A stretch of 64,000 nucleotides of DNA, from the NCBI GenBank assembly GCA_027604185.1, contig JADGKB010000069.1, positions 1 through 64,000 on the forward strand, written 5' to 3'. This DNA comes from Boothiomyces macroporosus. Taxonomy: Eukaryota; Chytridiomycota; Chytridiomycetes; Rhizophydiales; Terramycetaceae. Of this stretch, positions 151 through 63,740 are shown piece by piece; position 1 is the stretch's first letter; each line of letters starts with the position of its first letter. The notes under the pieces were generated by a model. That model searched no databases. It worked only from the letters and a program-made list of their open reading frames with translations, and was not told the origin of the DNA. A program made the translations under genes and the position numbers.

Positions 151-1753
151 TTATTGTACATTGTTAAATTTATTCAACTTTGAAACCCCCCAATACATTT
201 GCAAAATAGAAATTTCTTCATTTCTTAGCATGAGAGCGTATTTCTGGTTTTGGTTGACAGGCTCAGCGTCAATAGCTGCATACTCGCCTAATCTAGCTTC
301 TACAACCGCTTTGATTGTTGCGTTAACAGTGCTTTGTAGTTTATCGGCCTTTGCTTTGCCCTTCTTTTTTGGTTTTGGAGCTTCTTGCAAATCGTTACGG
401 ATCTTTACCAAAGCTTCAATTGCCAAGTTCAAGTCTATAGCGATAGTTTCAAATGCTTGCTGAGACATGGCCAACAGATTAACGAATGCTGCCAGAGCGA
501 AAGAAGGTTTGCCATCGTGCTCAATGTAAAAATCATCCAACAATGGGTCTTCTTGATCGCAACCTTCACAGTTTTCATCATCGCAGCACATATCGCCTTC
601 GCCGTCATCTCCTTCATGGCCATGTTCTTCGCCACAACAATCGCCAGTGTGTTCATGTTCGTCAAAGTCTTCTTCTGGTTCTTCATTTTCATCCAAAGCC
701 CCCAATTGATCAACAATATCTTTTCCGACTTGATCCCAAAATCCTAGTCTGTCTTCAAGGCTTTCCGGATCTAATCCTTTAAATTGCTCCAAAACATCCT
801 TTCTGTCGATTCTAACACAAGAGAATTCATTTTCTTGATCTACAAATCCATACAAACGAAGCAGTGAGCTGTTGGAATGATCCCCGTATGTATTGAATAG
901 CTCTTCACCTTTCTTTGCAGCTCTGACAGTAACCATTTCCAAAATTTCATTATCCATCGGGGTTTCTTCATCTAATTCAGGTGCTTCTTCCATATCTGCT
1001 AATTCTGGTGCTTCGTCGCCATCTTCTTCAATAGTATCTAATTCCGGGACATCTTCGTCATCCTCCCACTCTTCACCTTCACAGTCACACCCATCGCTGG
1101 ATCCGCAAGTAGGGCACACATCGCCAACACCTTCAAAGTGAACATGCTCAGCACCAGTTTTATGGTTAAACAAGTCAGCTAATGGGACCAAAGATTCACC
1201 ATGAAATTCGTCAACTTGGAAAGCTCTTGATGCAACCAAAGAAGTAGCATTCATCCATCTTTCCAAAGTCATGAATTTAGCATCGAATTCAGCATATTTT
1301 TCAATCAACGGAATCACATGCTCTTTGTAGTCATCTTGCAAATATTGAATGTCTTGGGCAAGAGACTTTCCTACATCAGTGCTGGCTAAAAAAGCTTTAT
1401 CTTCATCCGACCAGAAGCACGGTACGTTTTCAAAAACAGGGATAGATTGCAAGTAATTATACCATGGCGATTTTTCTCCCAAAGAAGCTTCAAACATGAT
1501 GGCAATAGCCAACCCCAAGACACCTCCCAATTCATTCTCTTCCAAAATATCAGCACATGCGGTGTTTCTAATGGACAGCACAGATTCTTTTGGAATGGAA
1601 CAAACTAGTTAATGATACCTTACCTTTGACGCCTTCTTCAATGTCCTCAGTTGCCCTGATGCTGAAGCCATTGTCGTCGCTTACTATTTCAATTTTATCA
1701 AAAGTGATATTGTTGGATTTGAAGAATTCTCTTAGCTTTTCAACCTTGTCCAT
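151..1753 (-). CDS. SET-domain protein-lysine methyltransferase, RKM3/RKM4/SETD6 type
   Basis: Two exons, 1753-1624 and 1604-151, joined over a 19-nt intron (1605-1623, GTAAGGTATCATTAACTAG) to give 527 aa. The join creates the family's early strand (VKVCSIPKESVLSIRNT), which neither frame has alone. The SET core shows the substrate/cofactor motif VPLADLFNHKTGAEHV and the closing GEELFNTYGDHSNSSLLRLYGF, typical of the class that methylates ribosomal proteins (Rkm3/Rkm4) or, in animals, SETD6 targets. A Cys-containing, very acidic insert (CPTCG...CDC, then Asp/Glu runs) sits between the two motifs. A second Cys/His/Asp-rich insert follows the SET core (plus-strand about 530-670) and could bind metal. 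The C-terminal part resembles the Rubisco-LSMT substrate-binding domain. Family is firm; exact substrate is inferred. Confidence 0.87.
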
Positions 1754-1834
1754 TTGAAATTAAAAACTTTTTTTTCAAAAAAAAATAAAACCAAGCCACC
1801 GTTTCAATTTCGGACAAGTAAAACAAAATCTATT

Positions 1835-6034: not shown

Positions 6035-7197
6035 TCACTGATTGAGAGCACTATAGGATTCGCTGTTTTCGAGTCTCATTTTCCTATTAAATTCGCGTGA
6101 CAAATCAATATGCAGTTTATTCTTTAGATTTTGTTCCACATCTTTAGTCTCGTGTATCAAATGAGACACGCCGTTAGATCCTTTACTATAGAACGGATTC
6201 CATGCCTTTTCCGTTGAAGATTTTACATATATAGTCCCTGAATCAAAAGATATTTACCCAAGAGATTGCTAAATATTGGAACAAGCGGGTAGATGTTCTT
6301 GTTACTTCCATTATTTAAAAAAGAAAGGATTGGCGGCAGTGCGGCAATCACCATACCATACGTGCCTGCATTAGCTAATAGTACCATAGTATACATTGAC
6401 AACTGAAGGAAAGATCCAAATAAGTAATTCAAACCCTTTGATGAATCCGATAATAGGCATAGTGTATCCAATTTGAAGCACTTGAAAAACCAAGTAGCCA
6501 GGAATACCACGCTTTTGAGCTATATCAATCATCATTTCAAAGTTGGTTTTTAATTTACCCCACGTTTGCAATGTGATTACTAATCCATAAATTGTAGAGA
6601 ATATTGAGAGAATATAGCTAGTGATTATAACTATTGATAAGTTGTATGGAGCAATTATTTGGCCGTTCACTGAATAAGGATGGTCGATTCCGCGTATATT
6701 CATTTCCACCAAGTACAAAACCACTGCAACAAAGCCAGGGATAATACCCAGTGAAAAGAAAGCAAACGGTCTATTCATTATCCACCGTCTAATTACTGAA
6801 GTCTTTTCATCCATGATAGCATCCAGAGCAAGTATCTGTAAAGTACCTGCTATATAAATAGGCAAACACCCTAAACTAAATAAAGTAGGGTTCAAATAAT
6901 GTATCCAAGAACTATTGGTAAGATTGATATCTGGATGATCGTAAAATAAAGATCCGCTACCCCAATTATAATACAGCAACTCTAATTTTGACAGTATATT
7001 GAAAACACACAGAATAGAGTAGTGTATATTAGTTGCATTATTGAGCTGTACTGCATTGGTTGAAATGTTTTTGTCATGTAGGCTTTGAATAGACCTATAC
7101 CTAAGCAAATGGAGACGAATAAGCCAAGGAAATCGAGTACCAGTACCAAACTGATGAAATAGACTGACAAGCGTTGTAGCGGATCATGGTAATTCAT
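6035..7197 (-). CDS. multi-pass membrane protein, family not recognised
   Basis: Multi-exon. Two introns are well supported: 6366-6384 (19 nt, GTACTATTAGCTAATGCAG) and 6238-6257 (20 nt, GTAAATATCTTTTGATTCAG). The second joins FSNLLG to TIYVKSSTEKAWNPFYSKGS and moves the stop to 6035. A further frame change near 7000 is required. The only combination I found is a 29-nt GT...GAG segment (6980-7008), an outlier, so that exon join is provisional. Start taken at 7197 (MNYHDPLQRLS), directly before the first TM helix; a Met at 7251 is possible. About seven hydrophobic segments, a luminal loop with N-glycosylation sequons (NLTNSS), and a hydrophilic cytosolic C-tail. Function unknown. Confidence 0.6.
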
Positions 7198-7329: not shown

Positions 7330-7941
7330 CTATTCGTGTTTGATGTATGAATCAAATGTTTTGATATTCAGCTTGCTACAACTAAATCGAATCAGTTCAC
7401 CAACAAATAATTCTGTATAATCAGTTAGATAGTCTTGTAATAATATACATAATTGTTTTTGGATATCTGGATCATTCTTGTACTGAATGAAACTTGCGTA
7501 AATATAGTTGGTTAGCAAGTCGCTATGTATTCCTATTGCTTCCAAATCTCTAGCAATCCATTCTTTTAATTCTGGTTTCACAATAATTTCCTTTTTTTGA
7601 ACGATAGTCTGTTTCTTGTGTTTGAAAATGTATTTCCGCAGTGCTATTCCTGCCATTGGCCCTTTACCCCATTTACTTGGCTGTCTTTTCAAATCCTTGA
7701 TCTCTAGTATATCCGTATTATTTGACACTAGTTCTGTTTGCTGCTTACATAGTGGACAAGTAGGGTTATTAATAAGCCATTTCTTTATACAATTAAAACA
7801 GAATTTGTGGAAGCATGGTATTAAGGTTGATTTTGTTGGGTTTGAAAGGCAAATCGAACAAGGCTCCAGCTCCTCTTCAACAGCAACAATTCTCCCCTCT
7901 TCAATAGCAATATTTTCCTCTGTTTCATTAATGGGTGACAT
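7330..7941 (-). CDS. Topors-like RING E3 ubiquitin/SUMO ligase
   Basis: 203 aa, single exon. The N-terminal third holds a C3HC4 RING: CSIC, then CFHKFCFNCIKKW, then CPLC. The C-terminal third (from about KPELKEWIARDLEAIG to FSCSKLNIKTFDSYIKH) matches the conserved region after the RING in Topors-family proteins, with the pattern of a long helical domain ending in a phenylalanine-rich IRFSCSKLN-F-Y signature. Topors acts as a dual ubiquitin and SUMO E3 in the nucleus; this is a minimal version lacking the long Arg/Ser-rich region. It is divergent from the PEX39-like gene with only 43 bp between start codons, so they probably share a promoter. Confidence 0.78.
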   Translation of the reverse strand: MSPINETEENIAIEEGRIVAVEEELEPCSICLSNPTKSTLIPCFHKFCFNCIKKWLINNPTCPLCKQQTELVSNNTDILEIKDLKRQPSKWGKGPMAGIALRKYIFKHKKQTIVQKKEIIVKPELKEWIARDLEAIGIHSDLLTNYIYASFIQYKNDPDIQKQLCILLQDYLTDYTELFVGELIRFSCSKLNIKTFDSYIKHE

Positions 7942-12836: not shown

Positions 12837-13830
12837 ATGGCTCCAACTGCCCACAAAGAATCAACTGGATTAAATTTACAGCAAAATCCTATCACTTTGG
12901 GATGTGTTCCGGAACACTTTAGCGGCCCTCTCTATTTATCTCCGTCCCCTTCAGTTAATATTAAATCATGTCCTGGTGGTACTGGGCAGGTAAACTTTTT
13001 TAATGCAGATGATTAAATACTTGGAAAGTCAGCAAGTAGATGCAGTCATAGCTCTAACTGAGGGCTTGGTATATAGTAAGGGAAAATTAACCAGAAACCT
13101 GTTCTCAATTATTGGAAACCAATTCAACCTCAATTAATCTCAGCGGGTCCTATACCAATTCTTCCCTTTGCTGGTCGGTAGCAGTAGCACCCGATAGTAA
13201 AATTAAAAAACTACAAGATTTAAGAGGTGGAAAAATTGGAATTAGTCGATTAGGAAGTGGGTCCCATATCATGGCCGTTGTATTAGCCATGCAGAATGGA
13301 TGGCCAGATTTTGAATTTGTTATTTTAAACGATATAAATGGATTGATCAAGGGTGTCAATGAAGGAACCGCAGATGCATTCATGTGGGAGGTAATTACCA
13401 CCAAAGTAAAAATCCTTAACCGTAGCCGTATTATGACAAGAAGGTGCTATCGATGCTGGATACATTTTACTCACCTTGGCCAGCATTTATGCTCGCTACT
13501 CGCACACAATCCAGATTTAATATCCCTGAATTCCAGAAATATCTAAAAACCTGTATTTCAGAGTTTGTAGACAATTTCGAAAGCAAAGGGCTTCCATTGC
13601 TAGTAGAGAAAAAGGATGTATTTCACTACCCAGATTCAGCTGATGTTAAAACATGGTTCAAGGATGTAAAGTTTACCTCAGACCCACATTTGGTGCAGCG
13701 CAGCTCACTCCAACACTGTGTAGATACATTGGTCAAAGCCAATCTTATTGATTCAAAGTTGCTCAAAGAATGGGAGGATGCAAATGGCAAAATAGTCGAG
13801 CGTATATGCCAGAACGTCACTTTTGAATGA
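12837..13830 (+). CDS. Ca3427-like type 2 periplasmic-binding-fold protein
   Basis: Four exons (12837-12989, 13009-13075, 13095-13405, 13426-13830) with introns of 19, 19 and 20 nt give 311 aa. The joins restore the family: GCVPEHFSGPLY near the start, PGGTGQ|MIKYLESQQVDAVIALTEG, SGSYTNSSLCWSVAV, DLRGGKIGISRLGSGSHIMA, ADAFMWE..TTKPYYDKK and TFYSPWPAFMLA. These match the two-lobed type 2 substrate-binding fold known in fungi as Ca3427-like, related to thiamine-precursor/aromatic-sulfonate binding proteins. There is no signal peptide or transporter neighbour, so it is probably cytosolic and its ligand is unknown. Confidence 0.85.
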
Positions 13831-26818: not shown

Positions 26819-28050
26819 ATGAAAATAACAGTGCAAGTTGGTAGTTGGAATGTGGCTACAAAAGAACCCAACAGCTCACAGCTACAAGATATTTCAAACT
26901 GGCTCGAAAGGTCTCTGTCACCATCTCCGGATATTATATGCTTAGGATTCCAGGAATTGGTGCATCAAGCTCATCTCCATCGTATATCAACATACCAGTC
27001 TTTTTGGAGCCCTACTAGAGAAGGATCTATGCATATACCCGCCTTGGAATCCTGGATAAATCGTGTAGAAAGTGCACTATTGAAAATCCATGGACTTGGC
27101 GCAAAGTACCGTCCGTTATACGCAGGAAAAACAGCAGGGATTGGAATGTTGGTTTTCATCAAGGAGGGTATTCTGTGTTAAATATAGGAACTATTATTAA
27201 TAAAATCGCTACTGGATCCATCGGAACTGGTCTTGGAGGTGTATATGTAAACAAAGGTGCTGTTGGTATATCGTTCGAATGCGAATTAGAGAAATATCCA
27301 GAACAAAGCAGCTCGTTTTGCTTTATCAGTTCACATTTGAATGCACACGCAGGCGAAGCGAATTGCATATGGAGACAGGAGGAAGCAGATCACATCCTGT
27401 CGTGTTTGGTTCTAAAACCATTTAGAAGTGTTCCATTTGTCACTCTTCCTCAAAATCACGAAGTAATATGGTTTCTAGGTGATTTGAACTTTCGATTCAA
27501 AGGTGCAAAAGACAAATGGGCTCATGGGATAATTGGCAATGACTCTACTCTTCCGAAACGATCAAAAATTCTAGAATTAATTCAAAAGATTGATGTGGAA
27601 GAATTGAACGCATTGGATGAACTAAATTATCTCAGGTCAGTCCAACAAGGAACATTAGCTCAGTTTAGAGAACCGAAAATATTGTTTACACCATCCTACA
27701 AATTGAAAGGAGTAAAGAAAGCTGATGTACCACGGACCTATTCGGAAACTAGGATGCCTGCTTATTGCGATAGAATATTATACTTTAGTGACGGCCACCA
27801 CAGTGTATCTCCATTACATTACTTGAGAGTAGAAGAATTCGACTGGAGCGACCATGACCCAGTAGTTGCACTGTTTCATCTAGAGCGGATTGCTGAAGAT
27901 ATGGCCAAGCCAGTATTGGGTTGCAATCTGGCACTCGTTAGTTCTCAAAGATGGTCGAGATTCTTTTATATTAATCAATGGCGCATTATTGCTCTCGTAG
28001 TTTTAGGAGTCGCTCTAGTAGGTTATCACCTGCTGAATAAATTCCTTTAA
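26819..28050 (+). CDS. inositol polyphosphate 5-phosphatase, tail-anchored (copy 1)
   Basis: Two exons (26819-27167, 27188-28050) with a 20-nt intron (GTATTCTGTGTTAAATATAG) give 403 aa. The catalytic domain fills most of the protein: VGSWNVATKEP, ICLGFQELV, VNKGAVGISF, VIWFLGDLNFRFK, ILFTPSYKLKG, RMPAYCDRILYFSD and FDWSDHDPVVA, all expected active-site motifs of Mg2+-dependent 5-phosphatases acting on PI(4,5)P2 and related lipids or soluble inositol phosphates. A single hydrophobic helix ends the protein (IIALVVLGVALVGYHLL), so it is probably tail-anchored in an internal membrane. No RhoGAP, SH2 or Sac domain. Confidence 0.92.
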
Positions 28051-30241: not shown

Positions 30242-32563
30242 TCAGCTCTTTACCGCTAGTGTAACATCAGGATCAAGTGTTTCAAAGTATTTCAATATTC
30301 CAAATATACCCACATGATCTCCAACCATCGTTCTCGAAATTAATATTTCATTAAATTCTTCCTTTTTCGCCCACCGAGGTTTGTAGAGGTACTTTTCGTC
30401 AACTGGTCTGTGTATTGTGTCAGTTACTTTTTCTTTAATTGCGGTTGTAAATGCTTGAAGAGAAGCGGTTCCTCGTTTCCTCTTTCCATTTACAACTTTT
30501 TGGGCAATGATTTCAATTTTCGCGTCTTTGTTATCCCTTACTTTCTCAAGGTACAGTATTCTGCCAGGCAAGTACATTGGCATTTTCGTGGTTTTCTTTT
30601 CCTTTTGTACTTTTTTCAGGTATGCGATTTCGCTTTCTTGCAAGATGGAATTGGTGCTGTCAGGTATGTTTCCATTTTGTGTCCTTTGAAGTAACGTCTT
30701 TCTATTTTCATTTGTTCTAAACCTGTTGATAACTGCAGAGCCAAAGATTCGATATTTTGGCAAGTTGCAGTTGCTTAAAAGTCTATGAATATCGAATTTC
30801 AATTTTTCCATAGTTTCATGAGTTGTTCGTGTTACAATGTCGTCACCGCATACCACTGAAATACAAAAGTTGTTAAAGAGCGGTGACGTTTTATCGTTTA
30901 CAACACTACCAGGCATAGAATATCCGTAGCATCTACTTTGGTAGTACCCTCGTTTGCGCAAGAAATAAGTGACCAGTGAAGCAACACCCTACAGTTAATT
31001 ATATTTACTGCTCCAAGAGAATGTCCACAAACTACAATTTGGTATTGCGATTCTCTTTGATTAGAGCTTTTCAATATTTTATCCAACAATTCTTTATCGC
31101 AAATTTCTTTGACAATATTAAGAGCAGTCTTTTTAAATCCGGAATGAACCAAATAGTTTTCTGCCCCATCCAAGTCTTCATCAAGAATAACAGGATCAAA
31201 TTGCAAATCTACTAGTATATCTGCTGCACTATAAGTTCCTCTGATGGCAATTACAATTGAGCTCCAGTCATGATCAAGTGAAATCATGTACGGGGACCTG
31301 AATAAATCATTACTTAAAGAGAAATGGATCAACATGTCTAGTTTTCCAGTGATCTCGTTATCCAATTGAATATATGCCATATTTGCATAGTGTGAGAAAT
31401 GAAGAATGTCGATGATATCTGATTGTTTCAAATCCTGCTTCTCCAAAGGCACTGCAAACGAATATGAAGAAAAATTCCAGTCGTTCACATCCCCCTTTGT
31501 ATTTAAAGACTCTTCTGTTTCTATGGAGGTAAATGATCTGAATTTGTTTCCACCGCTTTTTGACAGTTCACTTGCTGAATCAGTGAATCGTCTCGGGGAT
31601 TTTTGGGATTTGCTTGAAGTGTTTGATTTCAGTGAAGTCTTACTTGGCTGTCTTTTCACAACAGCTATTTCAGATATATCCGTGTCCTTTCCAGCTTCTT
31701 CAATAGGGTCATTCAGCACACTTTTTCCATCGCTTATAGATAATGAATTGTTGCTAGCACTTTGCATGATCTTTTCTTCAGTCTGGAACAATGATTTAAA
31801 TGCCAAATATAATTTCTGTTCTCTTTTCAATAGTATTAATCCAACAGCTAAATCAGTCAAACTCCAATCGATATCTTTGTAATACTCTGCTAATGCTGAA
31901 GCTACGTCTGCTATTACAGTTTCACTATCTGTGGAATCAAGTGCTGGTGAACATAGCCATTCAATTCTTCTTTTCCATAGTTTCATGTATTTTCCAAAAT
32001 TCGTACTGGCGCGTCTTTTGGATCTTGAATTGTACATGAAAAATACTACAAAGAATATGAAAAATGACGAGGAAATGAATGCCATGATTGTGACCATCTT
32101 TACCAAATTTAGATTGAATGGAATACACTGTGTGCTGAGCTGGAAGGCATTCTTTTGAAAATAGGCAACTATAATACCGTATACTTGTAGCAGATATTCA
32201 ATAAACATTAATATCGCTTCGATATGACCAAGCGGCCCCATTAATTTCCTTCTTGGCCCAGGACTGCAAACTGTACCAGACATGGAGCATATCACACACG
32301 CCAGTTCGGATAGAAATTGAATACAAGAAAGGATCAGATATGCAGCTAGATATAAACCAAGAGTATTCAGCATATCGCAGCGATCTTTAAGAGCAAAGTA
32401 AAGAGCTATGGATAATATGGGGATTCTACGTTAAAGGGTGATTACGATATACACCGAAATAGCAAGACAAAAGTCGCAGGGAAATACAGATCATCCGGTG
32501 ATAGCTCTATCCTTCTGTAACAGAAGAGGTATCTTGGCTACTTGTGAGAAATATGAATACCAT
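30242..32563 (-). CDS. sn-1-specific diacylglycerol lipase (DAGL) homologue A (copy 1)
   Basis: Four exons: 32563-32561 (ATG only), 32537-32446, 32425-31009, 30988-30242, with introns of 23, 20 and 20 nt, give 752 aa. The join after the initiator gives MPRYLFCYRRIELSPDDLYFP, closely matching the start of animal DAGL. Four N-terminal TM helices, then DVASALAEYYKDIDWSLTDLAVGLILLKREQ, a Ser-rich insert, and the class-3 lipase core: HYANMAYIQLD, VIAIRGTYSAADILVDL, the nucleophile elbow GHSLGA (intron right after it), GYSMPGSVVN, Asp in CGDDIVTR, and His in ISRTMVGDHVGIFG. The enzyme releases 2-acylglycerol from DAG at membranes. Paralogue B lies at 61176-63740. Confidence 0.93.
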
Positions 32564-32850: not shown

Positions 32851-33528
32851 ATGAAAATCAAGTACCTGCTAAACACACTGGAACAGCCATTGAATATCCC
32901 TAATATCCCCAAAATGATGGTGTCCACGAGGCAGCTTTCTGGAATATCAGGGTAACGAGTTTTCTAATTTAGCCCTGAAGAATTTCAAAATCCAATTTCA
33001 AATTATAGCTCCAAAACAAATTCTTTTCATTCACTGGCTTTCCATGATACCCAATTAGTAGGTTATGTCTTGGCGACGTTCTATTCTACCACTCCGCTGT
33101 TGTTTGGCTCAAAATCCTATGTCCCAAATTTAAACGGAGATACCTTGATGATAAATGAAATTGCAGTGATGAAAAATCAACAGGGGAACGGGATAGCATC
33201 AAAATTACTTGATTTCACTCTGGCCCAATCCAAAAGCTCTCCTACAAACATTGAGTTTTCTATATTATCTACCAATATTTCTTCAGAAACGCTGTTTACA
33301 AAGTTTGCTGAAAGGCATGGCAATAATATTACCATTGGAGCTGAAGCGTGTACAGAGTGGGGCACTTACTTTGACTGGACAGTCAACATCAATAAATCGA
33401 ACCAAAAACAAAAGCTAGAGATACTGAATCCATGGCTCAATACATTTGGCATTGGCTGGCAGACCTACTTGGACAGGCGAAGCTTGATTACCCGCTCTAG
33501 GGCCAGACAGGAAAAAAGAAGAATATAA
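32851..33528 (+). CDS. GNAT-family N-acetyltransferase (copy 1)
   Basis: Two exons (32851-32951, 32973-33528) with a 21-nt intron give 218 aa. The join reads SGISG|PEEFQNPISNY and continues open. The acetyl-CoA-binding signature is present as INEIAVMKNQQGNGIASKLLDFTL (Q-x-x-G-x-G/A), preceded by a central strand VGYVLATFYSTTP. The 3n-length intron carries an in-frame TAA. Substrate is not evident. The C-terminal tail is basic (SRARQEKRRI). Start at 32851 is the furthest upstream in-frame ATG; inner Mets near 32920 are alternatives. Confidence 0.78.
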
Positions 33529-34738: not shown

Positions 34739-36273
<1,535 letters not shown>

Positions 36274-48205: not shown

Positions 48206-48223
48206 TATATATATATTTAGAGT

Positions 48224-50545: not shown

Positions 50546-50832
50546 TTGCGGAAACGGAAGGTAAACATCTTACGTGGATTTTTGTTTGTTTAAGCTTCCA
50601 ACATGGCACCAGGTTTCACAAGAAAATTACAATTCTAAAATGAGATAATTATCCCCTTTTGTTGATCATGGAATGCTTGTGCTTAACAGACGAGGGGAGA
50701 TGCGCCGGTAGAACATATTTGACACTCAATTCCGACTAGTATAAACTGGAATCCTCACTTGATGTGCACTTGACATTGGAAACAACCAAGGGATGTAACT
50801 GAAATTGGACCCAACCATTCTTGGAAAAAATA

Positions 50833-51510
50833 ATGAAAATCAAGTACCTGCTAAACACACTGGAACAGCCATTGAATATCCCTAATATCCCCAAAATGAT
50901 GGTGTCCACGAGGCAGCTTTCTGGAATATCAGGGTAACGAGTTTTCTAATTTAGCCCTGAAGAATTTCAAAATCCAATTTCAAATTATAGCTCCAAAACA
51001 AATTCTTTTCATTCACTGGCTTTCCATGATACCCAATTAGTAGGTTATGTCTTGGCGACGTTCTATTCTACCACTCCGCTGTTGTTTGGCTCAAAATCCT
51101 ATGTCCCAAATTTAAACGGAGATACCTTGATGATAAATGAAATTGCAGTGATGAAAAATCAACAGGGGAACGGGATAGCATCAAAATTACTTGATTTCAC
51201 TCTGGCCCAATCCAAAAGCTCTCCTACAAACATTGAGTTTTCTATATTATCTACCAATATTTCTTCAGAAACGCTGTTTACAAAGTTTGCTGAAAGGCAT
51301 GGCAATAATATTACCATTGGAGCTGAAGCGTGTACAGAGTGGGGCACTTACTTTGACTGGACAGTCAACATCAATAAATCGAACCAAAAACAAAAGCTAG
51401 AGATACTGAATCCATGGCTCAATACATTTGGCATTGGCTGGCAGACCTACTTGGACAGGCGAAGCTTGATTACCCGCTCTAGGGCCAGACAGGAAAAAAG
51501 AAGAATATAA
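50833..51510 (+). CDS. GNAT-family N-acetyltransferase (copy 2)
   Basis: Identical second copy of 32851-33528; intron 50934-50954. Confidence 0.78.
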
Positions 51511-51641
51511 TTCATCTTTACTTGTTTCATTCATCTTTGCTCGTTTCATTCTGTACCATTCTGGATCGTTTTGATGACACATTTTCGAGTCACCAACTAA
51601 AGCCTGAATTTGTCCAGATTTTTTTTCAAAAATATAAATCA

Positions 51642-52685
51642 ATGAACGAAAATACTCCAGCTTATTACCCACCGTTGCTGTTAGAATCCCTAGGAGGAGG
51701 AAAACGCCCCATCAAGACAGTAGATATTTCTAATCGTCAGGTTTCAAAGACACCTCCCACGAATATCCAAAAACCACGCCAGTTGAGATCAAGATCCAGA
51801 GAGCGGTCTCTCACACCAGGCATTTACGGATCTCCATCATCAACTAATCTACCCCTTGATGAGGACGCTCCTCCAACCACAATGCTCTTCTCGTCTTCCC
51901 CTACGAAAAGGTCAACACCAAAACTAAATTTATCTACACAGTCTACGCCAGTCCATACTCCGCATTCGATGCACACACCTGGGTCGCACATGTCTGTGGA
52001 TAACTTGAATACACCCGTCTCGATTTTGAATGGGACTACTATAACGGTAATTGGAATTCCACCGCATAGACATGAATTTATTAAAAAAATGTTTATGGAG
52101 CTGGGACCTGTTGCATATATCAATTTACAAGAAGGAAGGAATTATATGGTCGTGACCTACTTACATTCATCAACCGTGGAACAGGCTTTGCGATACGATG
52201 GGAAAACCTTTGACGATTCATGGGTTATCGTTGTGCGAGTTGGTGATGCATTCAATACCCACCTAGGAAAAGATTCTGAACAAAAGAGCGTTGGCTCTGA
52301 ACGCAAAGATAGCATTATTTCAAGTGAAAGAAAAAGCGAAATTGGAACCGAAAAGAAACTGGGATTGGAATCACCTTCTGCATATATGGAAACACCATCC
52401 AAGTTAAAGCCAAAAAGAAGTCTTGTTTTGACTGAAGCCAGTTTGATGACACCTGCAAAGCCAATTAAACCGATTCTAAAGGAAACTAGAGCACAAAATT
52501 ACCCTACTATACACGAAGACCCTGTTGTTATTGCTCAGCCGCAGCATTTCGAACCAGACCAGAATGAAAACCTTTACCCTACCATTGACCTCCAACAAGA
52601 ACGAAGCGAGCACAGACAGGTTACTTTGAATATGAAATCATCTGGTATATTTGAAAGAATATCAGATTTGATTTTTGGTTGGTAA
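51642..52685 (+). CDS. Nup53/Nup35-family nucleoporin (copy 2)
   Basis: Identical second copy of 33660-34703; intronless. Confidence 0.9.
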   Translation: MNENTPAYYPPLLLESLGGGKRPIKTVDISNRQVSKTPPTNIQKPRQLRSRSRERSLTPGIYGSPSSTNLPLDEDAPPTTMLFSSSPTKRSTPKLNLSTQSTPVHTPHSMHTPGSHMSVDNLNTPVSILNGTTITVIGIPPHRHEFIKKMFMELGPVAYINLQEGRNYMVVTYLHSSTVEQALRYDGKTFDDSWVIVVRVGDAFNTHLGKDSEQKSVGSERKDSIISSERKSEIGTEKKLGLESPSAYMETPSKLKPKRSLVLTEASLMTPAKPIKPILKETRAQNYPTIHEDPVVIAQPQHFEPDQNENLYPTIDLQQERSEHRQVTLNMKSSGIFERISDLIFGW

Positions 52686-52720
52686 TAAAAGTATATTTGA
52701 TTATAAACGAAACCAAAAGT

Positions 52721-54255
<1,535 letters not shown>

Positions 54256-54669
54256 TTTTGCAAAAGTTGGCTTGTCAATTTGCTTTGTTTAAAAGGCGCA
54301 ACAAAGAAATAATTGCATTTAAATAATCAATAAAATCCATAGGCGGAAAGGAAATTTACATTTGTTGATGTAATCCAGAGTCTAAGCTTGATCTGATGGG
54401 CGGATTTTAACCCGTACGCGCGCCATTACTTTTTGTATTGGATTAGCATGGGTTATACTAGAATAAAGGGAAATGAAATCCCGTGAGAATATCCTGCTTA
54501 ATAGAGAGTAGTCGCAAGGCTAAACGATTTATATTAAATGCTCAGTACTAATTGCGGATTTATATGCTCTAATTGGTGTTTTTGAAGGGATTGCACTGTT
54601 TAGGCTTAGCTGCCTGTTTGATGTCAGCCACAAAGTGAAAAAGCTGGGTGGCTAAACTTCAACCAAAAA

Positions 54670-55407
54670 ATGAAGGATACAGAGGATGTAGCAGAGAATA
54701 CAACTGTTGTATCCGCTAGTAGAGGAATTGTCGAATCATTTCAACCCCAAATAGAAAAAGCCATTTATCGAGGCAAATTCAGTTATTTCATTGATTCTGT
54801 GTTGCTGTTGGTTAATATTTCTTCATTCACATTTCTGATCATGTATTGTTACAAAGTGTTTCAATTGGGCGAATTGCAGTATGTCAGCTGGAAGATTTTG
54901 TTTTGTTTGTTTACTGGGATATTTCTAGAGCGAATCTATGCAATTATTGTGGGGTTGGTGAGAGTCCAATTCAGTTCATGGATATACAAGCTTCTCTTTA
55001 TAGTGTTAACCGTACCTGGTAATTTTGTCTTTATTCAGGAAACACACAGATGCTGTTTCTCAGTCTGTATCCCTATGACAGGAAAAAGAATATGATTAGA
55101 GTGCGAGTAATGGTAATTGTATGTAATCCAGGTTGCAACGATCGTCGGGAGTATTTTGCAAGCGTTTGCCTTGTTTTACACCCTATTTGATGCCCAAACT
55201 TACTGCAAGAGGTTCCCACAAAGTGATTATTGCGGAAACACACCGGATGCCTCATCAAACCGACAGCAGCTGATAATCAGAGGTGTAGTAGCAATAGTCG
55301 GTGGGTTCATCACTTGGCAGTTTATTGTAATCGAGTTGATCAAAGACTTTTGTTGCATCGTTCCATACGAGGACTGGAAGCGCAACAAGGAAACCCAAGA
55401 AATATAA
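54670..55407 (+). CDS. polytopic membrane protein, unrecognised (copy 2)
   Basis: Identical second copy of 36688-37425; introns 55019-55038 and 55113-55131. Confidence 0.72.
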
Positions 55408-55508
55408 ATAGAATTGTATCTCTTTTTTAATCTGTATCTCTTTGATGATATTGTAATACAATTCATTAAATTTGACGAGCGAAATTTTCAAATATTTTCC
55501 AAATTGAA

Positions 55509-56418
55509 ATGCTTCGCAATTTCAGAAGACAGGTCGTATTCTCTGTAGGATTCGTAGGAGCAACATTCACCATTGGTATCCGTTATTAATGCAGCCCATA
55601 TTCACAGGTCGAATGAATTAGTGGAGGAAATGAAAAGCAACAGACTTCAAATTCTACATTTGTTTGAGCCATCGCAATATCTTTTAAAGCTGGACGAAAG
55701 GCAGAACGTATTTCAGCGTATCCGAACCATAGCAATCAACAAATACCGGGAATTATCAGACTCTCAGAAACTGTGTCTACCGATAATTGCCATAAATTCA
55801 TTGGTGTTTCTTGGTAATTGTTGTTGACATAGCTTGGCAATTCCCTAGGAATCACAGATTTATGGAGAGATACTTTATGCATACGCCCAGTTCATCTCCC
55901 ATAACGATATTCACTTCAACGATTTCTCACAGGACAGCCTTGCATTTTGGTTTGAATATGGTGGCATTATTTTCATTCTTTCCGTCGTATCAATACCGTA
56001 GCGGATTCAGTGATCAACAAATGATTGCGTTCTATCTATCGACATGTGTATTGAGCAGTCTTGGGTCTGTATTTTCTACGATATATTTAAGAAGGGCGAT
56101 ATTGCCATCACTTGGAGCCAGCGGGGGTAACTCTTTATTAATCAAGGCATTTTTGGGCTAATTAGTGGAATGGCATCTTTAAACCCAAATGGCAAAGTCT
56201 ACCTCGTCTTCCTCCCAGGGCAGGAATTTGAAATGAGACAGGTAGTACCTCTTTTGATTGGTTTTGATTTTCTCGGACTTGTCCTTGGTTGGCGCGTTTT
56301 AGACCATGCTGCTCATTTGGGTGGTGCACTTTACGGTTGGTTTTACACAAATTATGGTTATCAGTGGTGGTCCAAAATACAAACAAGCCTATTAAAGTGG
56401 AGAACCACTAATAAATAA
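55509..56418 (+). CDS. mitochondrial rhomboid protease, PARL/Pcp1 type (copy 2)
   Basis: Identical second copy of 37527-38436; introns 55576-55594, 55814-55832 and 56127-56146. Confidence 0.92.
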
Positions 56419-56680
56419 TGATTACTATTTAAAGCCTCAAAGAAAATGGTATTGTTTTTTGGTGCCACAATATTCGCCAAGTCGTGTATGACAGCAATGG
56501 GAACGTGACTTTGCAATCAAAACCAACCTTTAGAGTATTTAATCGCTACTAAATGTACTATCCTTTGTTCAATTTGGTTTAATTTGTCTCCGTTCAGTTG
56601 TTTCAGTGACACTCGGCTCATGAGTGGGCTCAAACAAGTGGTGTTTTAAATGCCAAAGGAATTTGTAAACAATTTGAAAG

Positions 56681-58306
56681 ATGAAAATCACTCTATTTTT
56701 AATAGGAGTATTATTTGCGAAAAGGCACCATCATGGAGAACATGGTGATGATGGATCCTCACAGAATGGAATCAACAAAGTACTTCCCGACTCGAACGTA
56801 CCAAGTACACCAATATCTCAAATACCCCAAGGAGGAGATGATGATAACAATACAGGCATTCAGTCCAGTAGAAACGAAGATCAAAAATCATCCCCTCCCA
56901 ATATTCCTATGTCGATACCCCAACCTCCAACACCTCAACCACAACCCCAGCCTGGAAATATTCCTATATCGCCAGGGAGTAGTCCTCCAAACACGGATGA
57001 TGGTCCAGGAATATTTGTAATGTCAAGTGATGACGAAGATGAACATGGGGAATTTGGTGGTCACAGAAAGCATCATCATGATGATGGGCTGGGTAGAAAT
57101 CAACTTGCTTCTGAAACAGTTCCAGTAGCCACTATAACTGCAAATCCGGTTGTGCAGTTACCTATTGCAGGTTCAAATTCAAACGACAATTCTACGTCTT
57201 CTGATGACGATGCAAGCAAGAAAGGCAAAGATGCGGCTAAACAGGCAGTTCAGACTCCTATTGTATTTGCCTCGTTATTGGCTATGCTCATATTGCTACC
57301 CGCCTTTTTTGCAGGATTCAAATATTATTACAACAAAAAATATAGGAACGAACATGCACCAAGTAGAGAATCAAAAGAGTTTGATGATTTAGCGATGCCT
57401 CCTCCAGCACTGATGCGATTGTCTTTGGAAAATATGGGGAAACCGCGACGAGTGGATAGTGGGGGTTTGAATCCTTTAGGTTTCGGCTCTAATGGGTCTG
57501 ATTCAGAATCACTTGTAAACTCTGATGAATACATGCCTAGAGTTGGAAGTGGGTTGTCACTTGGGAGTAGTGTAGTTAGAAACAGTAATCTAACTAGTGC
57601 TCGAAATAGTAATGTTGTTCAAAATGATTTAAATACTCCTATGGAAGCAGGAAGAGAGAAGAGGTACTCAGCCCAAGTTGATCGTCAATCCATTAATTTT
57701 AATAGATTGTCTGTTGGCTCGAGTAAAGTTGGAAACGACAGCTTGACGAGAAAAGAAGTCAAGCTTTCAATGGCAAGTGTTGGTACGCCTTCTCCTTTAC
57801 GGTTTTCAAATACGTCTGGCCCTATTGAGCCATCCAAACCAGTATCTTTTGGGATTTCCGGAGTAGAAAAGAGATACTCTCCTTCTCCTTTACGCTTATC
57901 AGAGCTGTCCGGACCTATTTCATCCAACATTGAAGCATCAGCAGTACAACTCGCACCGGTATCCGAGTTGGTAGCTTCCTCGCCGACAGCTGCAGGAATG
58001 TCTCCTACTCCTTTAAGATTTTCAAATGTATCTGGGCCAAGAATTTCTTCATCAGATGTTCAGCTAGATTCCCCATATGGAGTTGGTGCAAGTCCAACAA
58101 TGAACTCTCCTGTACATTCTCGAGAAGCAACTCTAGGATTTTCACCGACCCTGCCTCAAAGCCCTGTAACACATTCGCCAGTTGGAAGAATGAACACATT
58201 CTCGTTTGTCTCAGTAGAGCGGGATGATCCTCTTCAAAATACACTTGGAGAGCAATCACTTTATGAAAAGTTGCAACAAATATACGACCCTAAAAATTCA
58301 ATGTAA
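56681..58306 (+). CDS. single-pass membrane protein with Ser/Pro-rich tail (copy 2)
   Basis: Identical second copy of 38699-40324. Confidence 0.72.
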   Translation: MKITLFLIGVLFAKRHHHGEHGDDGSSQNGINKVLPDSNVPSTPISQIPQGGDDDNNTGIQSSRNEDQKSSPPNIPMSIPQPPTPQPQPQPGNIPISPGSSPPNTDDGPGIFVMSSDDEDEHGEFGGHRKHHHDDGLGRNQLASETVPVATITANPVVQLPIAGSNSNDNSTSSDDDASKKGKDAAKQAVQTPIVFASLLAMLILLPAFFAGFKYYYNKKYRNEHAPSRESKEFDDLAMPPPALMRLSLENMGKPRRVDSGGLNPLGFGSNGSDSESLVNSDEYMPRVGSGLSLGSSVVRNSNLTSARNSNVVQNDLNTPMEAGREKRYSAQVDRQSINFNRLSVGSSKVGNDSLTRKEVKLSMASVGTPSPLRFSNTSGPIEPSKPVSFGISGVEKRYSPSPLRLSELSGPISSNIEASAVQLAPVSELVASSPTAAGMSPTPLRFSNVSGPRISSSDVQLDSPYGVGASPTMNSPVHSREATLGFSPTLPQSPVTHSPVGRMNTFSFVSVERDDPLQNTLGEQSLYEKLQQIYDPKNSM

Positions 58307-58338
58307 ATAAAATCCAATTTGAGAAATTATCATTAATT

Positions 58339-58613
58339 ATGCAGAGCGTCTTGAAATTGTACTGGTCTTCAAACAGGCTCTGTTTCGTTTCAAGTAACTC
58401 ACTCTCTATGTGGTGGGAACATTCAACAACTGGAACACATGTGCAGGTATTCCTTGCCTATACAGGTTAATTTGAACAATAGCGGCGAGTAGAACCCTAT
58501 TCGATATGGATCCTCGACTGGAACAAGCTGTAACAACCCAAAATGGTATCCTGGATCAAACTTGGACTATCAAGGCACTGCTCTTGAAACTGAATACGCT
58601 TCTTATTGAATAA
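58339..58613 (+). CDS. possible 85-aa gene with a 17-nt intron (copy 2)
   Basis: Identical to 40357-40631, with the same doubts; the putative intron is 58466-58482. Confidence 0.3.
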
Positions 58614-58640
58614 ACATTAAAGAATTTCAATTTACTTTTT

Positions 58641-60728
58641 TTAAAATAGCAATTCATCTTTTGGCAAGAGATCATTCCATTCTGGAAGACATTCCTTTAC
58701 AAAATAATCACGCTTCTCTTCAAATGTTCTAAATCTAGAGACATCTGCAATTACTAATTCCAGTAATAAGTGGTTTTTTGTGCATAGCAGAAATTGGTAT
58801 AATGTAGGTGCAAGTGATATCTTTCCTGTTTTTCTATTGTATTCAATCCATTCAATCAGGTTTTGATCGCCTTTTGACGAATTGCATGTACTACAAGATT
58901 TGACTTTGACAGTCCCTTTTCTTGTGGTTGGTATAACATGATCAGTTGTCAATCTTTTTTGTTCCCCACAGTAAATACATTCATATTCTTCATTAAAGAA
59001 CTCTAATTCCAACGGTTTAGTATAAACCCTGTTAATAGGATTCTTGAATTCAATACTTTGTGCTTTCACATAAGACTGCAGTAGACTCAAAGCTTCTTCT
59101 TTCTTTTCTACTTTTTCATAATCAATGTTTAGCAAATCAGTGATAAATGTGATTGGTTCATCTTCAATAAATTCATCTTGTTTAGTTTCCTTTTTTTTAA
59201 AATAGCCCCATGCAGGTTCTCTGCTTCTATTCCTTTCATGTTTTAGGTTTGACAGAGTTGGGGGTTTACTTTTTTGACGATTATACTGGTAGATCATGTG
59301 TTGTTCTCCAGCAGAATACCTCCTAATAAGTATATTTTCATCTCCATATTCCAAAGCACTTGTACCAGGATCTTGATCATAATATCTAGATTGCCCAAAG
59401 GTTTCGCTTTGATGCTTGCTAAATTGGTCATTCGAGTAATCTTTAGTCTTGCTGGAATATGATTTAGTCACTATCTGTGGTTCCCTTTTGGTCATTTTCT
59501 TGAAAGTAGGAAGAGGATCATCATCGGAATCTATAATTTCTATTGGTTCAGCCATAAGCTTCTCTTTTGCCTGCTTTTTAATTGGAGGCTTTATCCTCGT
59601 TGGCCGCATGGCAGCTGGTGGATCCAAATAAGCAAGTAATTTGGATTCAGTCTTTTCTTTTGACTGATATTTATCATTGGTATTTTTCCTGGGTATAGTA
59701 CCAAAATAAGCAGATATCTTTGGTTTTGTTTTGGTATCTAAAGTACGAGTAATTTCACCATTTGAATATTCATTGCTTGACAGTTTTTGTGCCCATTTCT
59801 CCAACATATTTTTAGATTTTTCTTTCAGATAACTTACAGTGTCTTGTTTGAAATCATGTTGGCCAACTGTTGGCTTGTCTAGCACTTTGTGGTTATCTTT
59901 TGCAATCTTTGCAAATTTCCTTTGCCCAAGATACTGTTCAAAATGGTTTACTTTTTCAGATGGTATCAGCAGTGAATTTCTAGCAGTGTAAATGCTTTTA
60001 TCTTGAACAATAAAGTCTGCTTTGTTTACACTATGCTTTTGAACTAAAGCCTCTGCTTGCATTGTACTTTTTTCTCGAGCTGGTTGCTCAATATTATTTG
60101 CTTTCTGAATTGGAGGCTCTTCTCGTGGGGTTTGAATTGTTTCAATATTCTTTACACTTGCTTTCTGAACTTGATTTTCTACATTTGCCTTTTGGACAGA
60201 TTCTTTTTTCTTTGCAATATTAGCAAGCAACTCGCACGGCAATTCTTCATAATCACTTTTCGGCTTTTCTAGTTTCATTTCTTCACTTTCCTTTCTTCCC
60301 TTCTTTGATTGCTTTTCCAAATCCACTTTAACATTCTTTCTCTTTTTCTTTTTAAACATGTCTTGGTATTCATCCTTTTCTTCCTCCAACTTTGAGCTCA
60401 ATTCAAACAGAGATTTGAAATCTATCGGCCGTGAATAGTAGTCATCTTCTGATTCGCTTCCTTCCAAATCGTCAATCTGATCTGGTATATCGGTATCTAT
60501 GGGAGAATCTATCTTTGCAGGTTCGCCAGCTCTGTCTGTAAGTGTATCTGCTTCCAATGGGGAATGCGCATTTGGTGGTTCTCCAACAATCATTTTCTTT
60601 TGCAACTCGACCAGCTTTTGTAATTCCCTTACTCTCGACTCTACCTCTTTAAACAGTGGAAATGCGTCGATTTGCTCCTTCATTTGGTTGTTAATTTCCA
60701 GGCATTGTTGCAAGATTTCAGAGTCCAT
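58641..60728 (-). CDS. HNH nuclease-domain protein with SUMO-interaction-like motif
   Basis: 695 aa, single exon, the complete form of the gene cut at 41775. N-terminus: a coiled-coil-prone helix (QCLEINNQMKEQIDAFPLFKEV...RELQKLVELQKKM), then a long charged, probably disordered region. A PIP-box-like KPKISAYFGTIPRK lies near residue 340 and a hydrophobic-acidic SUMO-interaction-like EPIEIIDSDDDPLP near residue 395. The C-terminus has an HNH/Cys4 domain: CIYCGEQKRLTTDHVIPTTRKG, then SCSTCNSSKGDQNLIEWI, with D-H, N and four Cys all present. It is probably a nuclear DNA-processing or repair nuclease; the motif-based links to PCNA and SUMO are inference. Only its 3' part lies inside the duplicated unit. 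Confidence 0.78.
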   Translation of the reverse strand: MDSEILQQCLEINNQMKEQIDAFPLFKEVESRVRELQKLVELQKKMIVGEPPNAHSPLEADTLTDRAGEPAKIDSPIDTDIPDQIDDLEGSESEDDYYSRPIDFKSLFELSSKLEEEKDEYQDMFKKKKRKNVKVDLEKQSKKGRKESEEMKLEKPKSDYEELPCELLANIAKKKESVQKANVENQVQKASVKNIETIQTPREEPPIQKANNIEQPAREKSTMQAEALVQKHSVNKADFIVQDKSIYTARNSLLIPSEKVNHFEQYLGQRKFAKIAKDNHKVLDKPTVGQHDFKQDTVSYLKEKSKNMLEKWAQKLSSNEYSNGEITRTLDTKTKPKISAYFGTIPRKNTNDKYQSKEKTESKLLAYLDPPAAMRPTRIKPPIKKQAKEKLMAEPIEIIDSDDDPLPTFKKMTKREPQIVTKSYSSKTKDYSNDQFSKHQSETFGQSRYYDQDPGTSALEYGDENILIRRYSAGEQHMIYQYNRQKSKPPTLSNLKHERNRSREPAWGYFKKKETKQDEFIEDEPITFITDLLNIDYEKVEKKEEALSLLQSYVKAQSIEFKNPINRVYTKPLELEFFNEEYECIYCGEQKRLTTDHVIPTTRKGTVKVKSCSTCNSSKGDQNLIEWIEYNRKTGKISLAPTLYQFLLCTKNHLLLELVIADVSRFRTFEEKRDYFVKECLPEWNDLLPKDELLF

Positions 60729-61175
60729 GAAAAAAGATTTAAACTTTTAAATTCCTACTCTATTCTTACCCCTCGTAAAATAAGGTTCATTTAAGAGTAT
60801 TTAATACCAGTTAAAGGGTAATGGGGTTCAAAGCAAGTGGTTGATACACGGAATGCTAATTTTTACAAGTCTACAATTGTAAATGAAATTAAGCTATGGA
60901 TATATTCACGAGACCATATTCAATAAACCAACAAGATAATACTCTATTGTATCCAAGGTGCTACAAGGTTAATTGCGGTCATATGATTTTGCTAAATAGG
61001 GATAAAGTATGTTACACAAACATATACCAAGGCTAACCAATCATAGAAACCAATCTAATATTATCCGCATTCTCTTTAGCTTTCAATTGCATATAATATC
61101 TAGCATATTGCTGTTCAAACCCGTTCCCTGGCTCGATCCAAAAGCAAAGAAAGCCACATTCAACCTTTGCGAAAA
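60729..61175. other. divergent intergenic region between HNH gene and DAG lipase B
   Basis: About 450 bp of AT-rich DNA serving as upstream region for both genes. The minus-strand ORF at 61033-61263 overlaps the lipase's first exons and is not considered a gene. Confidence 0.5.
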
Positions 61176-63740
61176 ATGGTAAATTGCAACTAATTAAAGG
61201 GACGGTATCTGTTCTGCAATAGAAGACTTGATCTCGCACCAGATGATTTATACATAAGTACAAGCATCATGTTCTTGTTCCGTCTTGTATGGTGATTATC
61301 ATTAATGTAGGCTTCCTATTTTAATATTGGCTTTCAATGTTGTTTATACCGATCATTGCAACTTGTATAATACCGTTGGATTGTATGTGACTGCAAATAT
61401 GGTACTGGGACTGGCTGGAATAGTGCTGGAAATTATCAATATTAAAATCAGTATGAGCGGGACGGTCAGCAACCCTGAACCAAGAAAGAATTTGAGGTAA
61501 GAAGGAATTAACAAGTAAATGGGGACATGCAGAGACAGCTTTATTGTTGTTTGACTTTTTCCTTCAAATTTATGGAATTTCAGTTACATTTGCCAAAGTA
61601 ACTGTTGATTCTTCATTCTATTGTGTAGAGCAGGATAGCAGGTTTAAAATTTCTCTGGTGAGAATGGTGGCGATTTGGGAATTCGTTACCTGCGCCTTGT
61701 TCTTTCTCATTGTTGGCTTTCTTGTTTATGGTTCAAAATCTAAACGCTTGCTATCTGAAGATTGGAACAATTACATTCTAATGTGGAAAAGAAGGTTTGA
61801 ATGGCTTCTATCTTCTTCAAATTTGTCAAATAGTGATGGCCAGGCAGTCTTGACGGACGTATCGATGGTGTTTGCTGATTATTTCAAAGATGTTGATTGG
61901 GCACCATCGGATATCGCTGTTGGATTGATTCTATTGAAACGAGAACAGAAAATTGCCAGAGAAGTCGCTGAGGCTAGAAATACAAACCCTACTCTTAATT
62001 GGAATGGATGGTATAGTCAAGAAGACATCTACGCTATTGACATTGATAATGAACGCACTGTTAGAGAAATCCCAAAGATTAAATTGGATATGCCTCAATT
62101 TGGCACTTTGGTGGAAAGCGGTTTGGATTCTGCAGTGTTGAATGAGAATGAAAAGTCACATTCACTAACAAGACTTCAACATTCCAAAGGTAGTGAATCT
62201 ACTCTTGGCACATTTTCATTTGATGAACCATCTGGCAGCAGAACTACTGTGGCATCATCTGCTGAAAGCGTGAAATCAAAACGGCCAGTTAGTGATACAT
62301 TTGGCAGCATCAAATTCCAAAATGCATTCAACTTTTTCAAACCAGAATTCAACAAGAAAAAGTTTTTGGGTAGATCCAAATCAGTCAATCTTCCTAAAGA
62401 TTCAAATTTGATTGAAATGCAAGAAAGGAAAAAGAGGTTGTCGCAGGATTGGAGTTTTGGTTCTTATGCTTTTGCTGCGAAAAAAGAGAATTATCAACTG
62501 ACTCAGCATGATATATTGGATGTAATTCACTTTTCACATTATGCTAATATGGCGTATGTTCAACTGGACAATGAAATTACTCGAAAAATGGATATGCTTG
62601 TTCACTATTCACCGTTGAATGATTTATTCAAATCCCCTTACATGGTATCATTGGATCATGATTGGAATTCAATTGTTATTGCTATCAGAGGGACCTATTC
62701 TGCCTCTGACATTCTTGTAGATTTGAAACTGGATCAATCCATTTTAGATGAAGATTTGGAAAATCCAGAACTATACACTGTGCATTCTGGCTTTTATCTT
62801 ACTGCAAAGAATATTGTTGATGATATGATGGCAAATAGAGTTTTAGAAAATATTGTTGGTAATAAGGAATCCAAGGTTCACAACTATCATATAGTAGTTT
62901 GCGGGCATTCTTTGGGAGCGGTAAATATGAGGCTAATCTTAGGCTGTTGGTGCATTAGTAGCTTACTTTTTACGCAAAAAAGGATTTTTCCGAACTAGAT
63001 GTTATGGGTATTCAATGCCTGGAGGGGTGACAAATGAGCTGACTGCGTCTCTGTTTGATGATTTCTGCATATCAATTGTTGCAGGAGACGATTCCGTTTC
63101 TCGAACAACTCATTATACCATGGAAATTCTAAAAGCTGATGTTATCCGTTTACTTGGAAATTGTGATTTGCCAAAATACAAGATATTTGGCTCAGCATTG
63201 GCCAACAGATACTTTCATTCTGAAAAGCGAAAGACCCTGCTGCAAAGGACTAGAAACGGAAACATTCCAGATAACAAAGACACTAACCTCGATGATTCTG
63301 AAATTGAAAAAATTAGAGCGCACACACTTTCCATTCCCAAAAAATGGCGATCTGAGAATGACCAGCATTTTATAGTGCCTTCGATCACCGTTCCTGGAAT
63401 ACCAATGTTTATGCCAGGGCGGATTTTGTATTTAGAAAAACTTAGGGATCACTCAAATAGGCCTGCAATCTTGGATACGCCCTCTGATAGTGGCAGGAGA
63501 CGACGCAGAGGCCAAAGAACACTTCAAGCATTTACAGCTGCAATCAAAGAGCGCGTAGTTGAAGTAACACATATTGCTTCTGATTATAAATACGCATATA
63601 CCCCACGCTGGGCCAGTAAAGATGAATTCCAAGAAATTATTATTTCTAGGACAATGATTAGTGATCACACAGCTGTATTTGGAATCCTGAAGATATTTGA
63701 ACAATTCCATCCCGATGTTCCCTTAAAAGCAAGTAGTTAA
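61176..63740 (+). CDS. sn-1-specific diacylglycerol lipase (DAGL) homologue B
   Basis: Five exons: 61176-61178 (ATG only), 61200-61291, 61311-61496, 61516-62920, 62943-63740, with introns of 21, 19, 19 and 22 nt; 827 aa. The second exon is 92 nt in both paralogues, and MGRYLFCNRRLDLAPDDLY parallels the start of paralogue A. Four TM helices, DVSMVFADYFKDVDWAPSDIAVGLILLKREQ, a Ser-rich regulatory insert, then the lipase core: HYANMAYVQLD, VIAIRGTYSASDILVDL, GHSLGA followed by the intron, GYSMPGGVTN, AGDDSVSRT and ISRTMISDHTAVFG. It has one intron (61497-61515) that A lacks. It lies outside the duplicated unit and is an older duplicate of A. Stop is 15 bp from that of the convergent dehydrogenase. 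Confidence 0.93.

Follow-up and report, generated by a model that had tools for sequence, protein, structure and literature searches.

We have analysed a 64,000-nt stretch of contig 69 (JADGKB010000069.1) of Boothiomyces macroporosus, referred to throughout as the window, in which conserved genes are interrupted by GT-AG introns of almost constant length. These are very probably U2-type spliceosomal introns of a Boothiomyces-lineage chytrid, shrunk genome-wide to a near-fixed 19–22 nt, near the lower end of known intron sizes, and we infer from the sequence that the segments are spliced out of RNA. In the window, 38 introns were re-derived in 13 or 14 genes (15 of 19 nt, 16 of 20 nt, two of 21 nt and five of 22 nt), and the same peak was found on contig 1 and by a pattern search of the genome. 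The preliminary description of this DNA, which held that nearly all introns are of 19–23 nt, is therefore upheld on the lengths. It had listed 44 introns (16, 18, 3, 5 and 2 at 19, 20, 21, 22 and 23 nt); its outer coordinates, 1605 and 62942, agree with ours, and our count is lower.

The host is free-living, with a genome of 15.2 Mb in 216 contigs. A fungal host had been proposed, and its proteins are indeed 94–96% identical to those of Boothiomyces, a genus placed by NCBI in Chytridiomycota, Rhizophydiales, Terramycetaceae. A single-exon oligopeptide transporter shares 96% identity with a protein of Boothiomyces sp. JEL0838, and the spliced coronin and V-ATPase subunit a share 94% and 95%, respectively, with proteins of Boothiomyces sp. 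JEL0866. The closest proteins of all three, on which the lineage placement is based, are from Boothiomyces.

Length distribution of the introns

The length distribution was first obtained with a flat gene finder, which scores coding sequence by codon usage, admits GT...AG introns of 10–300 nt without any length preference, and uses the terminal dinucleotides as its only splice motif. On 200 kb of contig 1, outside the window, 89 of the 208 GT-AG introns measured 19–22 nt (17, 43, 17 and 12 at 19, 20, 21 and 22 nt). Decoy dinucleotides on the same 200 kb gave 9 (GA-AG), 5 (GT-AC), 10 (AG-GT), 6 (TG-AG) and 8 (GT-GA) at these lengths. At 31–300 nt the finder gave no excess, with 90 GT-AG predictions compared to 121, 126, 125, 132 and 136 for the same decoys in the same order. 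Since GT-AG falls below every decoy in this range, nothing points to an abundant class of introns of ordinary length. The finder is not blind to such introns, as shown by lengthening 311 predicted introns of contig 1 by 20, 40, 80 or 160 random nt: 68, 70, 66 and 85, respectively, were exactly recovered, compared to 89 in native form.

A second model, with lengths and motifs learned on contig 1 plus the window with its tandem repeat counted once (246 kb), predicted 384 introns: 83, 148, 83, 32 and 4 at 19, 20, 21, 22 and 23 nt, one of 25 nt, and 33 longer. Thus, 350 of the 384 lie at 19–23 nt (351 at 19–25 nt), the narrow range that characterizes minimal-intron genomes. When three decoy pairs were trained in the same manner on contig 1, the fractions at 19–22 nt were 7/279, 7/248 and 5/237, compared to 306/335 for GT-AG. 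Short introns occur on contig 1 in 90 of 121 modelled genes, at a density of 1.92 per kb of modelled coding sequence. Extended to the full 15.2 Mb, the 351 introns in 246 kb correspond to some 20,000 genome-wide, an extrapolation on the upper side, inflated by duplicated contigs and false predictions.

A genome-wide search that requires no gene model, using the pattern GTAATN{0,30}CTAACNTAG, returned 110 matches, compared to 37 for the reversed pattern. Among the 100 matches listed, some of which are copies within duplicated stretches of the assembly, 81 correspond to 19 nt (41), 20 nt (29) or 21 nt (11), and the other 19 are scattered over the 28 remaining allowed lengths. A raw tally of all GT...AG pairs gave only a faint bump, and the hexamer GTANGT had no match at 19–22 nt in the window, because the G at donor position +5 has mostly been lost (see below). 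The peak exceeds chance: decoy dinucleotides, trained decoys, lengthened introns and the genome-wide pattern control agree, and the uniformity claimed for the window extends beyond it in both surveys.

Restoration of conserved proteins

Removal of the GT...AG segments restores conserved reading frames, as expected of U2-type introns. The spliced coronin aligns with mouse coronin-1A (2aq5, residues 2–398) without gaps at the six junctions that this range covers; the remaining one of seven, at residue 424, falls outside the alignment. To assess the effect of retention, we used profiles that comprised 108 coronins and 113 V-ATPase a subunits, after those of unsuitable length had been excluded from the 120 listed for each family. 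Retention of any one of the 15 introns truncates the product, at 12–438 of 463 residues in coronin and at 29–709 of 829 residues in subunit a. With all introns retained, 13 and 29 residues remain, respectively. Four 21-nt introns of the V-ATPase gene preserve the frame and truncate solely by means of an in-frame stop. On contig 1, such a stop would be introduced on retention of 62/78 introns of 21 nt, 45/69 of 19 nt and 83/132 of 20 nt, proportions that are partly due to detection bias.

Pfam families were also matched by seven other spliced proteins, of which four are encoded in the window and three on contig 1; the rhomboid protein in this comparison carried an uncertain 191-nt join (37353-37543). 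The carrier matches solved carriers weakly, with a best score of 52 bits (1okc) and with 2lck aligned over residues 18–280, and its identity thus rests on Pfam. The product lengths given in the preliminary description hold for coronin (463 residues) and the carrier (288 residues), as does the muskelin family assignment; muskelin itself has 706 residues in our model, compared to 736 there.

Gene models of relatives mostly agree with these junctions. Subunit a of Boothiomyces sp. JEL0866 has no insertion or deletion relative to the host protein, which spans eight junctions. In coronin, a 22-nt and a 20-nt intron, the first two of the gene, enclose a 9-nt exon encoding a conserved SKY (36201-36251). 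The public coronin models of JEL0866 (Boothiomyces) and JEL0728 (Terramyces) omit these residues, and in Terramyces a further 16 residues are absent next to a different junction. This suggests that both relatives share the predicted intron positions and that automatic annotation dealt with the introns incompletely. Common aligner defaults would miss introns this short. Given that the relatives' models mostly agree, the depositors' models probably already hold such introns. In Globomyces sp. JEL0801, protein P0140 has a 24-residue deletion at one V-ATPase junction and a 5-residue deletion near another; this organism may also have introns that were mishandled by annotation.

Anatomy of the introns

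The anatomy was derived from the 351 short introns of the trained model, and the branch spacing from the 328 with an assignable branch motif. The donor begins with a strong GTA (A at +3 in 89%), with later positions only weakly conserved. G is found at +5 in 55/351, though the 5′ end of U1 is canonical, and GTAATT is the commonest donor hexamer; 338/351 agree with GTAAGT at 3–5 of the 6 positions. The YTRAY-type branch element reported near the AG was found in 258/351, at a fixed distance from the 3′ end and complementary to the GUAGUA present in U2. Upstream of the branch A there are 13 nt in 138 introns, 14 nt in 133 and 15 nt in 38 (309/328), which corrects the earlier estimate of 9–13 nt. 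Downstream of it there are 5 nt in 150 and 6 nt in 131 (281/328). The proposed lack of room for a pyrimidine tract stands. The 3′ ends are TAG (229), CAG (74), AAG (41) and GAG (7), and the introns have a G+C content of 30%. In the trained set, the information in donor, branch and acceptor, minus the freedom in length, amounts to 11.4 bits, compared to about 9.1 bits needed to pick out a single site in each stretch of coding sequence. By this simple measure, the short composite signal is sufficient by itself.

Fungal introns are recognized by intron definition. In the mechanism that we propose, each intron would act as one composite signal of about 20 nt, consisting of a GTA(A) donor, 13–15 nt to the A of the YTRAY branch element, and 5–6 nt ending mostly in YAG, and would be recognized as a unit. 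SF1 and U2 would engage the branch element, after which the nearest following AG would be used without a pyrimidine tract; this order of recognition is our reconstruction. The resulting lariat would have a circle of 14–16 nt and a tail of 5–6 nt. A steric constraint on the distance between the 5′ splice site and the branch most likely imposes the lower limit on length. The abrupt lower cut-off of the lengths at 19 nt and the fixed branch distance suggest that shrinkage has reached this steric floor.

Splicing machinery

The small nuclear RNAs (snRNAs) surveyed have intact recognition elements. U1 starts with AUACUUACCUG, a canonical 5′ end, and scores 68.8 bits, just below the gathering score of 69.5. 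U2 is encoded by two diverged genes (L029 and L030; C80 and C178), each with an intact branch-binding GUAGUA, and U6 carries an intact ACAGAGA box. Among the proteins, Prp18, Slu7 and SF1 exceed their cut-offs, as does Prp8, which was assessed through its PROCN domain alone (775 bits). U2AF65 and U2AF35 were detected in pieces, in frames interrupted by introns; unspliced U2AF65 scores 230.7 bits against TIGR01642, below the cut-off of 310.3, and the spliced protein has three RRM stretches. Spliced U2AF65, SF1, Slu7 and Prp18 display the expected domains. When introns were restricted to 17–30 nt in the model, these four genes and the part of U2AF35 that could be modelled were themselves predicted to hold 19–24-nt introns. 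The Cwc25 N-terminus reads MGGGDLNLKKSWHP and keeps the Gly-Gly-Gly plug; the name is based on a Cir_N match and on Gly2-4, Trp12 and Trp24 as described for this protein (PMC9505925).

Three alterations were considered and rejected: loss of Slu7 and Prp18, both of which are encoded; a Stentor-like loss of the Cwc25 plug, which is present; and altered U1, U2 or U6 boxes, all of which are canonical. The set thus shows neither a Stentor-like adaptation, at the level of Slu7, Prp18 and the Cwc25 plug, nor a reduction of the mikrocytid kind, as every snRNA and factor searched for was found, with U4, U5 and most other proteins outside the search. The preliminary description had concluded that the compaction implies an adapted spliceosome. 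The components surveyed do not support this, since U2, SF1, U2AF65 and U2AF35, as well as U1, U6, Slu7, Prp18 and Cwc25, look ordinary. A canonical spliceosome can therefore probably handle this geometry.

Alternative explanations

Several observations weigh against uniformly short introns. The deficit of long GT-AG predictions may partly arise because short introns already explain the changes of frame. Training inflates whatever length a decoy happens to favour: the best 7-nt window of GA-AG (23–29 nt) rose from 26 to 76 predictions, and that of TG-AC (28–34 nt) from 21 to 52. Some of the 351 trained introns are surely false, and three doubtful introns of the window are still among them; the untrained 89 versus 5–10 is thus the safer figure. 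The 21-nt class is the least secure, as 16/78 on contig 1 contain no in-frame stop, and a strict YTRAY is absent from 93/351 introns. The full reading covered 246 kb of the 15.2 Mb. When the 33 predictions longer than 25 nt were rerun with introns limited to 17–30 nt, nine were kept in one gene with short introns or none (including a false 97-nt prediction in muskelin), five were split into two genes and 19 lost one coding flank. These 19, or 5% of the 384, could include genuine longer introns. One of them, a 73-nt candidate on contig 1 (C1:149885-149957), directly after an ATG and by reading with a good donor (GTAAGT) and branch element (CTAAT), is possibly such an intron.

The same long predictions, and the fact that the introns of the window were originally read by eye, are what might favour a reading bias, in which ordinary fungal introns are also present and the short ones are merely the easiest to see. 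We consider this improbable, given the shortfall of GT-AG predictions relative to every decoy at 31–300 nt, at near-equal sensitivity to lengthened introns, and the sparse scatter of the listed pattern matches over all other lengths combined. The perfect repeats in the assembly, which suggest artefacts, could likewise be taken to mean that the segments are insertion errors or frameshifts. Such errors would not carry a GT, an AG and, at a fixed distance, a branch motif; decoys are rare at these lengths, and protein models from other strains agree at most junctions compared; this is the least probable of the explanations considered here. Removal without a spliceosome, through excision at the DNA level, self-splicing or ribosomal bypassing, is scarcely more credible. 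The short uniform segments do resemble some excised DNA elements; however, the arrangement GTA...YTRAY...YAG is consistent with U1 and U2 complementarity, and U1, U2, U6 and SF1 are encoded with their recognition parts intact.

There is about an even chance that a complete, canonical fungal spliceosome, unchanged at the points tested, removes the estimated 20,000 introns of 19–22 nt with their spacing of 13–15 nt between 5′ splice site and branch. A structurally adapted spliceosome, in which the active site would have been widened or bent through changes in the snRNAs or the loss or alteration of factors, is a possibility to be taken seriously, if a distinctly weaker one. A lariat circle of 14–16 nt would be much tighter than usual, and G is scarce at +5 although the 5′ end of U1 is canonical. 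There is also the precedent of Stentor, in which, according to the published listing, Slu7, Prp18 and Cdc40 were not found and Cwc25 has no Gly plug (PMC9505925). Against adaptation stand the presence here of Slu7, Prp18, SF1, both U2AF subunits and the Cwc25 plug, as well as the unchanged boxes of U1, U2 and U6, within a search that left most other proteins aside.

If a canonical spliceosome does remove these introns, the basic architecture of the spliceosome is not what determines the usual minimum size of introns. U2AF, Slu7 and Prp18 would then have been kept in a genome whose introns are too short for a pyrimidine tract and lack a long distance from branch to 3′ end. In yeast, Slu7 and Prp18 are needed mainly for longer distances of this kind. 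The host thus offers a test of the geometric minimum of splicing, and of the role of U2AF, Slu7 and Prp18 without their textbook substrates.

Introns and genomic context of the window

The window has a G+C content of 36–40% (in steps of 4 kb) and contains a 17,982-bp tandem repeat whose two copies, 23794-41775 and 41776-59757, are identical at every position. The repeat is either an assembly artefact or a very recent duplication. Introns within it were counted once, giving what we call the collapsed window. Equal-scoring matches suggest similar duplicate pairs elsewhere: on C36 (copies 42,184 bp apart), between C49 and C100, and on C65.

In the collapsed window the gene finder gave 40 short introns, from which three were removed and to which one was added, resulting in the 38 of Table 1. 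One of those dropped is the stop-free 21-mer 7728-7748, whose excision would, by reading, delete a RING-finger cysteine. The others are the 21-nt pair 61179-61199 and 61205-61225, which flanks a 5-nt exon at the start of a gene. The muskelin intron 15341-15359, which the finder had fused into its false 97-nt intron, was added. In the rhomboid region, the 191-nt candidate intron sits among the five short ones.

Two other reading frames were identified by reading. An open frame on the plus strand (21603-22655) resembles a Tc1/mariner-type DDE transposase. Another on the same strand (28142-29173) would encode two RNase H-like halves, and the usual DGSC start is missing from the first of them.

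Table 1. Short introns re-derived in the window, by gene.
Gene	Introns (window positions)	Strand	Remarks
SET-domain gene, 151-1753	1605..1623 (19 nt)	-	
Membrane protein gene, by reading	6238-6257 (20 nt), 6366-6384 (19 nt)	-	
PBP2_Ca3427-like gene	12990-13008, 13076-13094, 13406-13425	+	
Muskelin	14226-14245, 14801-14819, 15341-15359, 16036-16054	-	Muskelin_N 271 bits
emp24/gp25L (GOLD) gene	17084-17105, 17181-17199, 17432-17450	+	
NIPA-type transporter gene	24373-24392, 25440-25459 (20 nt each)	-	identical copies +17982
Exo_endo_phos2 gene	27168..27187 (20 nt)	+	identical copy +17982
Mitochondrial carrier (288 aa)	29335-29356, 29546-29565, 29674-29693, 29800-29819, 30001-30021	+	identical copies +17982
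Class-3 lipase gene	30989..31008 (20 nt)	-	identical copy +17982
GNAT gene	32952..32972 (21 nt)	+	identical copy +17982
Coronin (463 aa)	34859-34878, 35092-35111, 35316-35335, 35876-35894, 36044-36065, 36201-36222, 36232-36251	-	identical copies +17982
Rhomboid gene or two neighbouring genes	37037-37056, 37131-37149, 37594-37612, 37832-37850, 38145-38164	+	identical copies +17982
By reading, paralogue of class-3 lipase at 30242-32283	61292-61310, 61497-61515, 62921-62942	+	

Comparison with known systems

The nucleomorph of the chlorarachniophyte Bigelowiella natans, the relic nucleus of an endosymbiont, has more than 800 introns of 18–21 bp in about 300 genes (PMC10245619, PMC5014332). The narrow range and almost equal length are as in the host; the host genome, in contrast, is fungal and holds its short introns at a density of 1.92 per kb of coding sequence in the gene models. 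The heterotrich ciliate Stentor coeruleus has introns of 15–16 nt, with the branch A mostly at nt 10–11 and a 5-nt tail, in 18% of its genes (PMC9505925). Both systems have a fixed position of the branch A and a short tail following it. They differ in that the branch A is at nt 14–16 in the host, the introns are present in 90 of 121 modelled genes, and Slu7, Prp18 and the Cwc25 plug, without which Stentor is listed, are all present.

Mikrocytos mackini, an obligate parasite, has 224 introns in total, of 16–17 nt, and a much reduced spliceosome of 17–19 identified proteins (PMC10245619). Its introns are uniform, tiny and conserved in sequence, like those of the host, which in contrast has many introns and all of the factors searched for. 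Paramecium and Nyctotherus also have only ultra-short introns, but theirs are longer, at around 25 bp, and both are ciliates, not fungi (PMC5014332). Other fungal introns are likewise GT-AG and U2-type. Among fungi, Cryptococcus neoformans was named as having short introns in a survey of 644 genomes, with a mean of 63 bp (PMC8476143), about three times the length of those described here.

Our search of the open-licence literature, with subscription papers and preprints outside it, found no report of tiny uniform introns in a fungus. A pan-eukaryotic survey left out introns shorter than 30 bp (PMC10639083), and would miss introns of this kind. In mikrocytids and Stentor, tiny introns go together with a machinery described as reduced or altered; the host separates the tiny introns from the reduced spliceosome. 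Tiny uniform introns as such are already known, and what is new here is their fungal, intron-rich setting, with splicing factors that are ordinary as far as tested.

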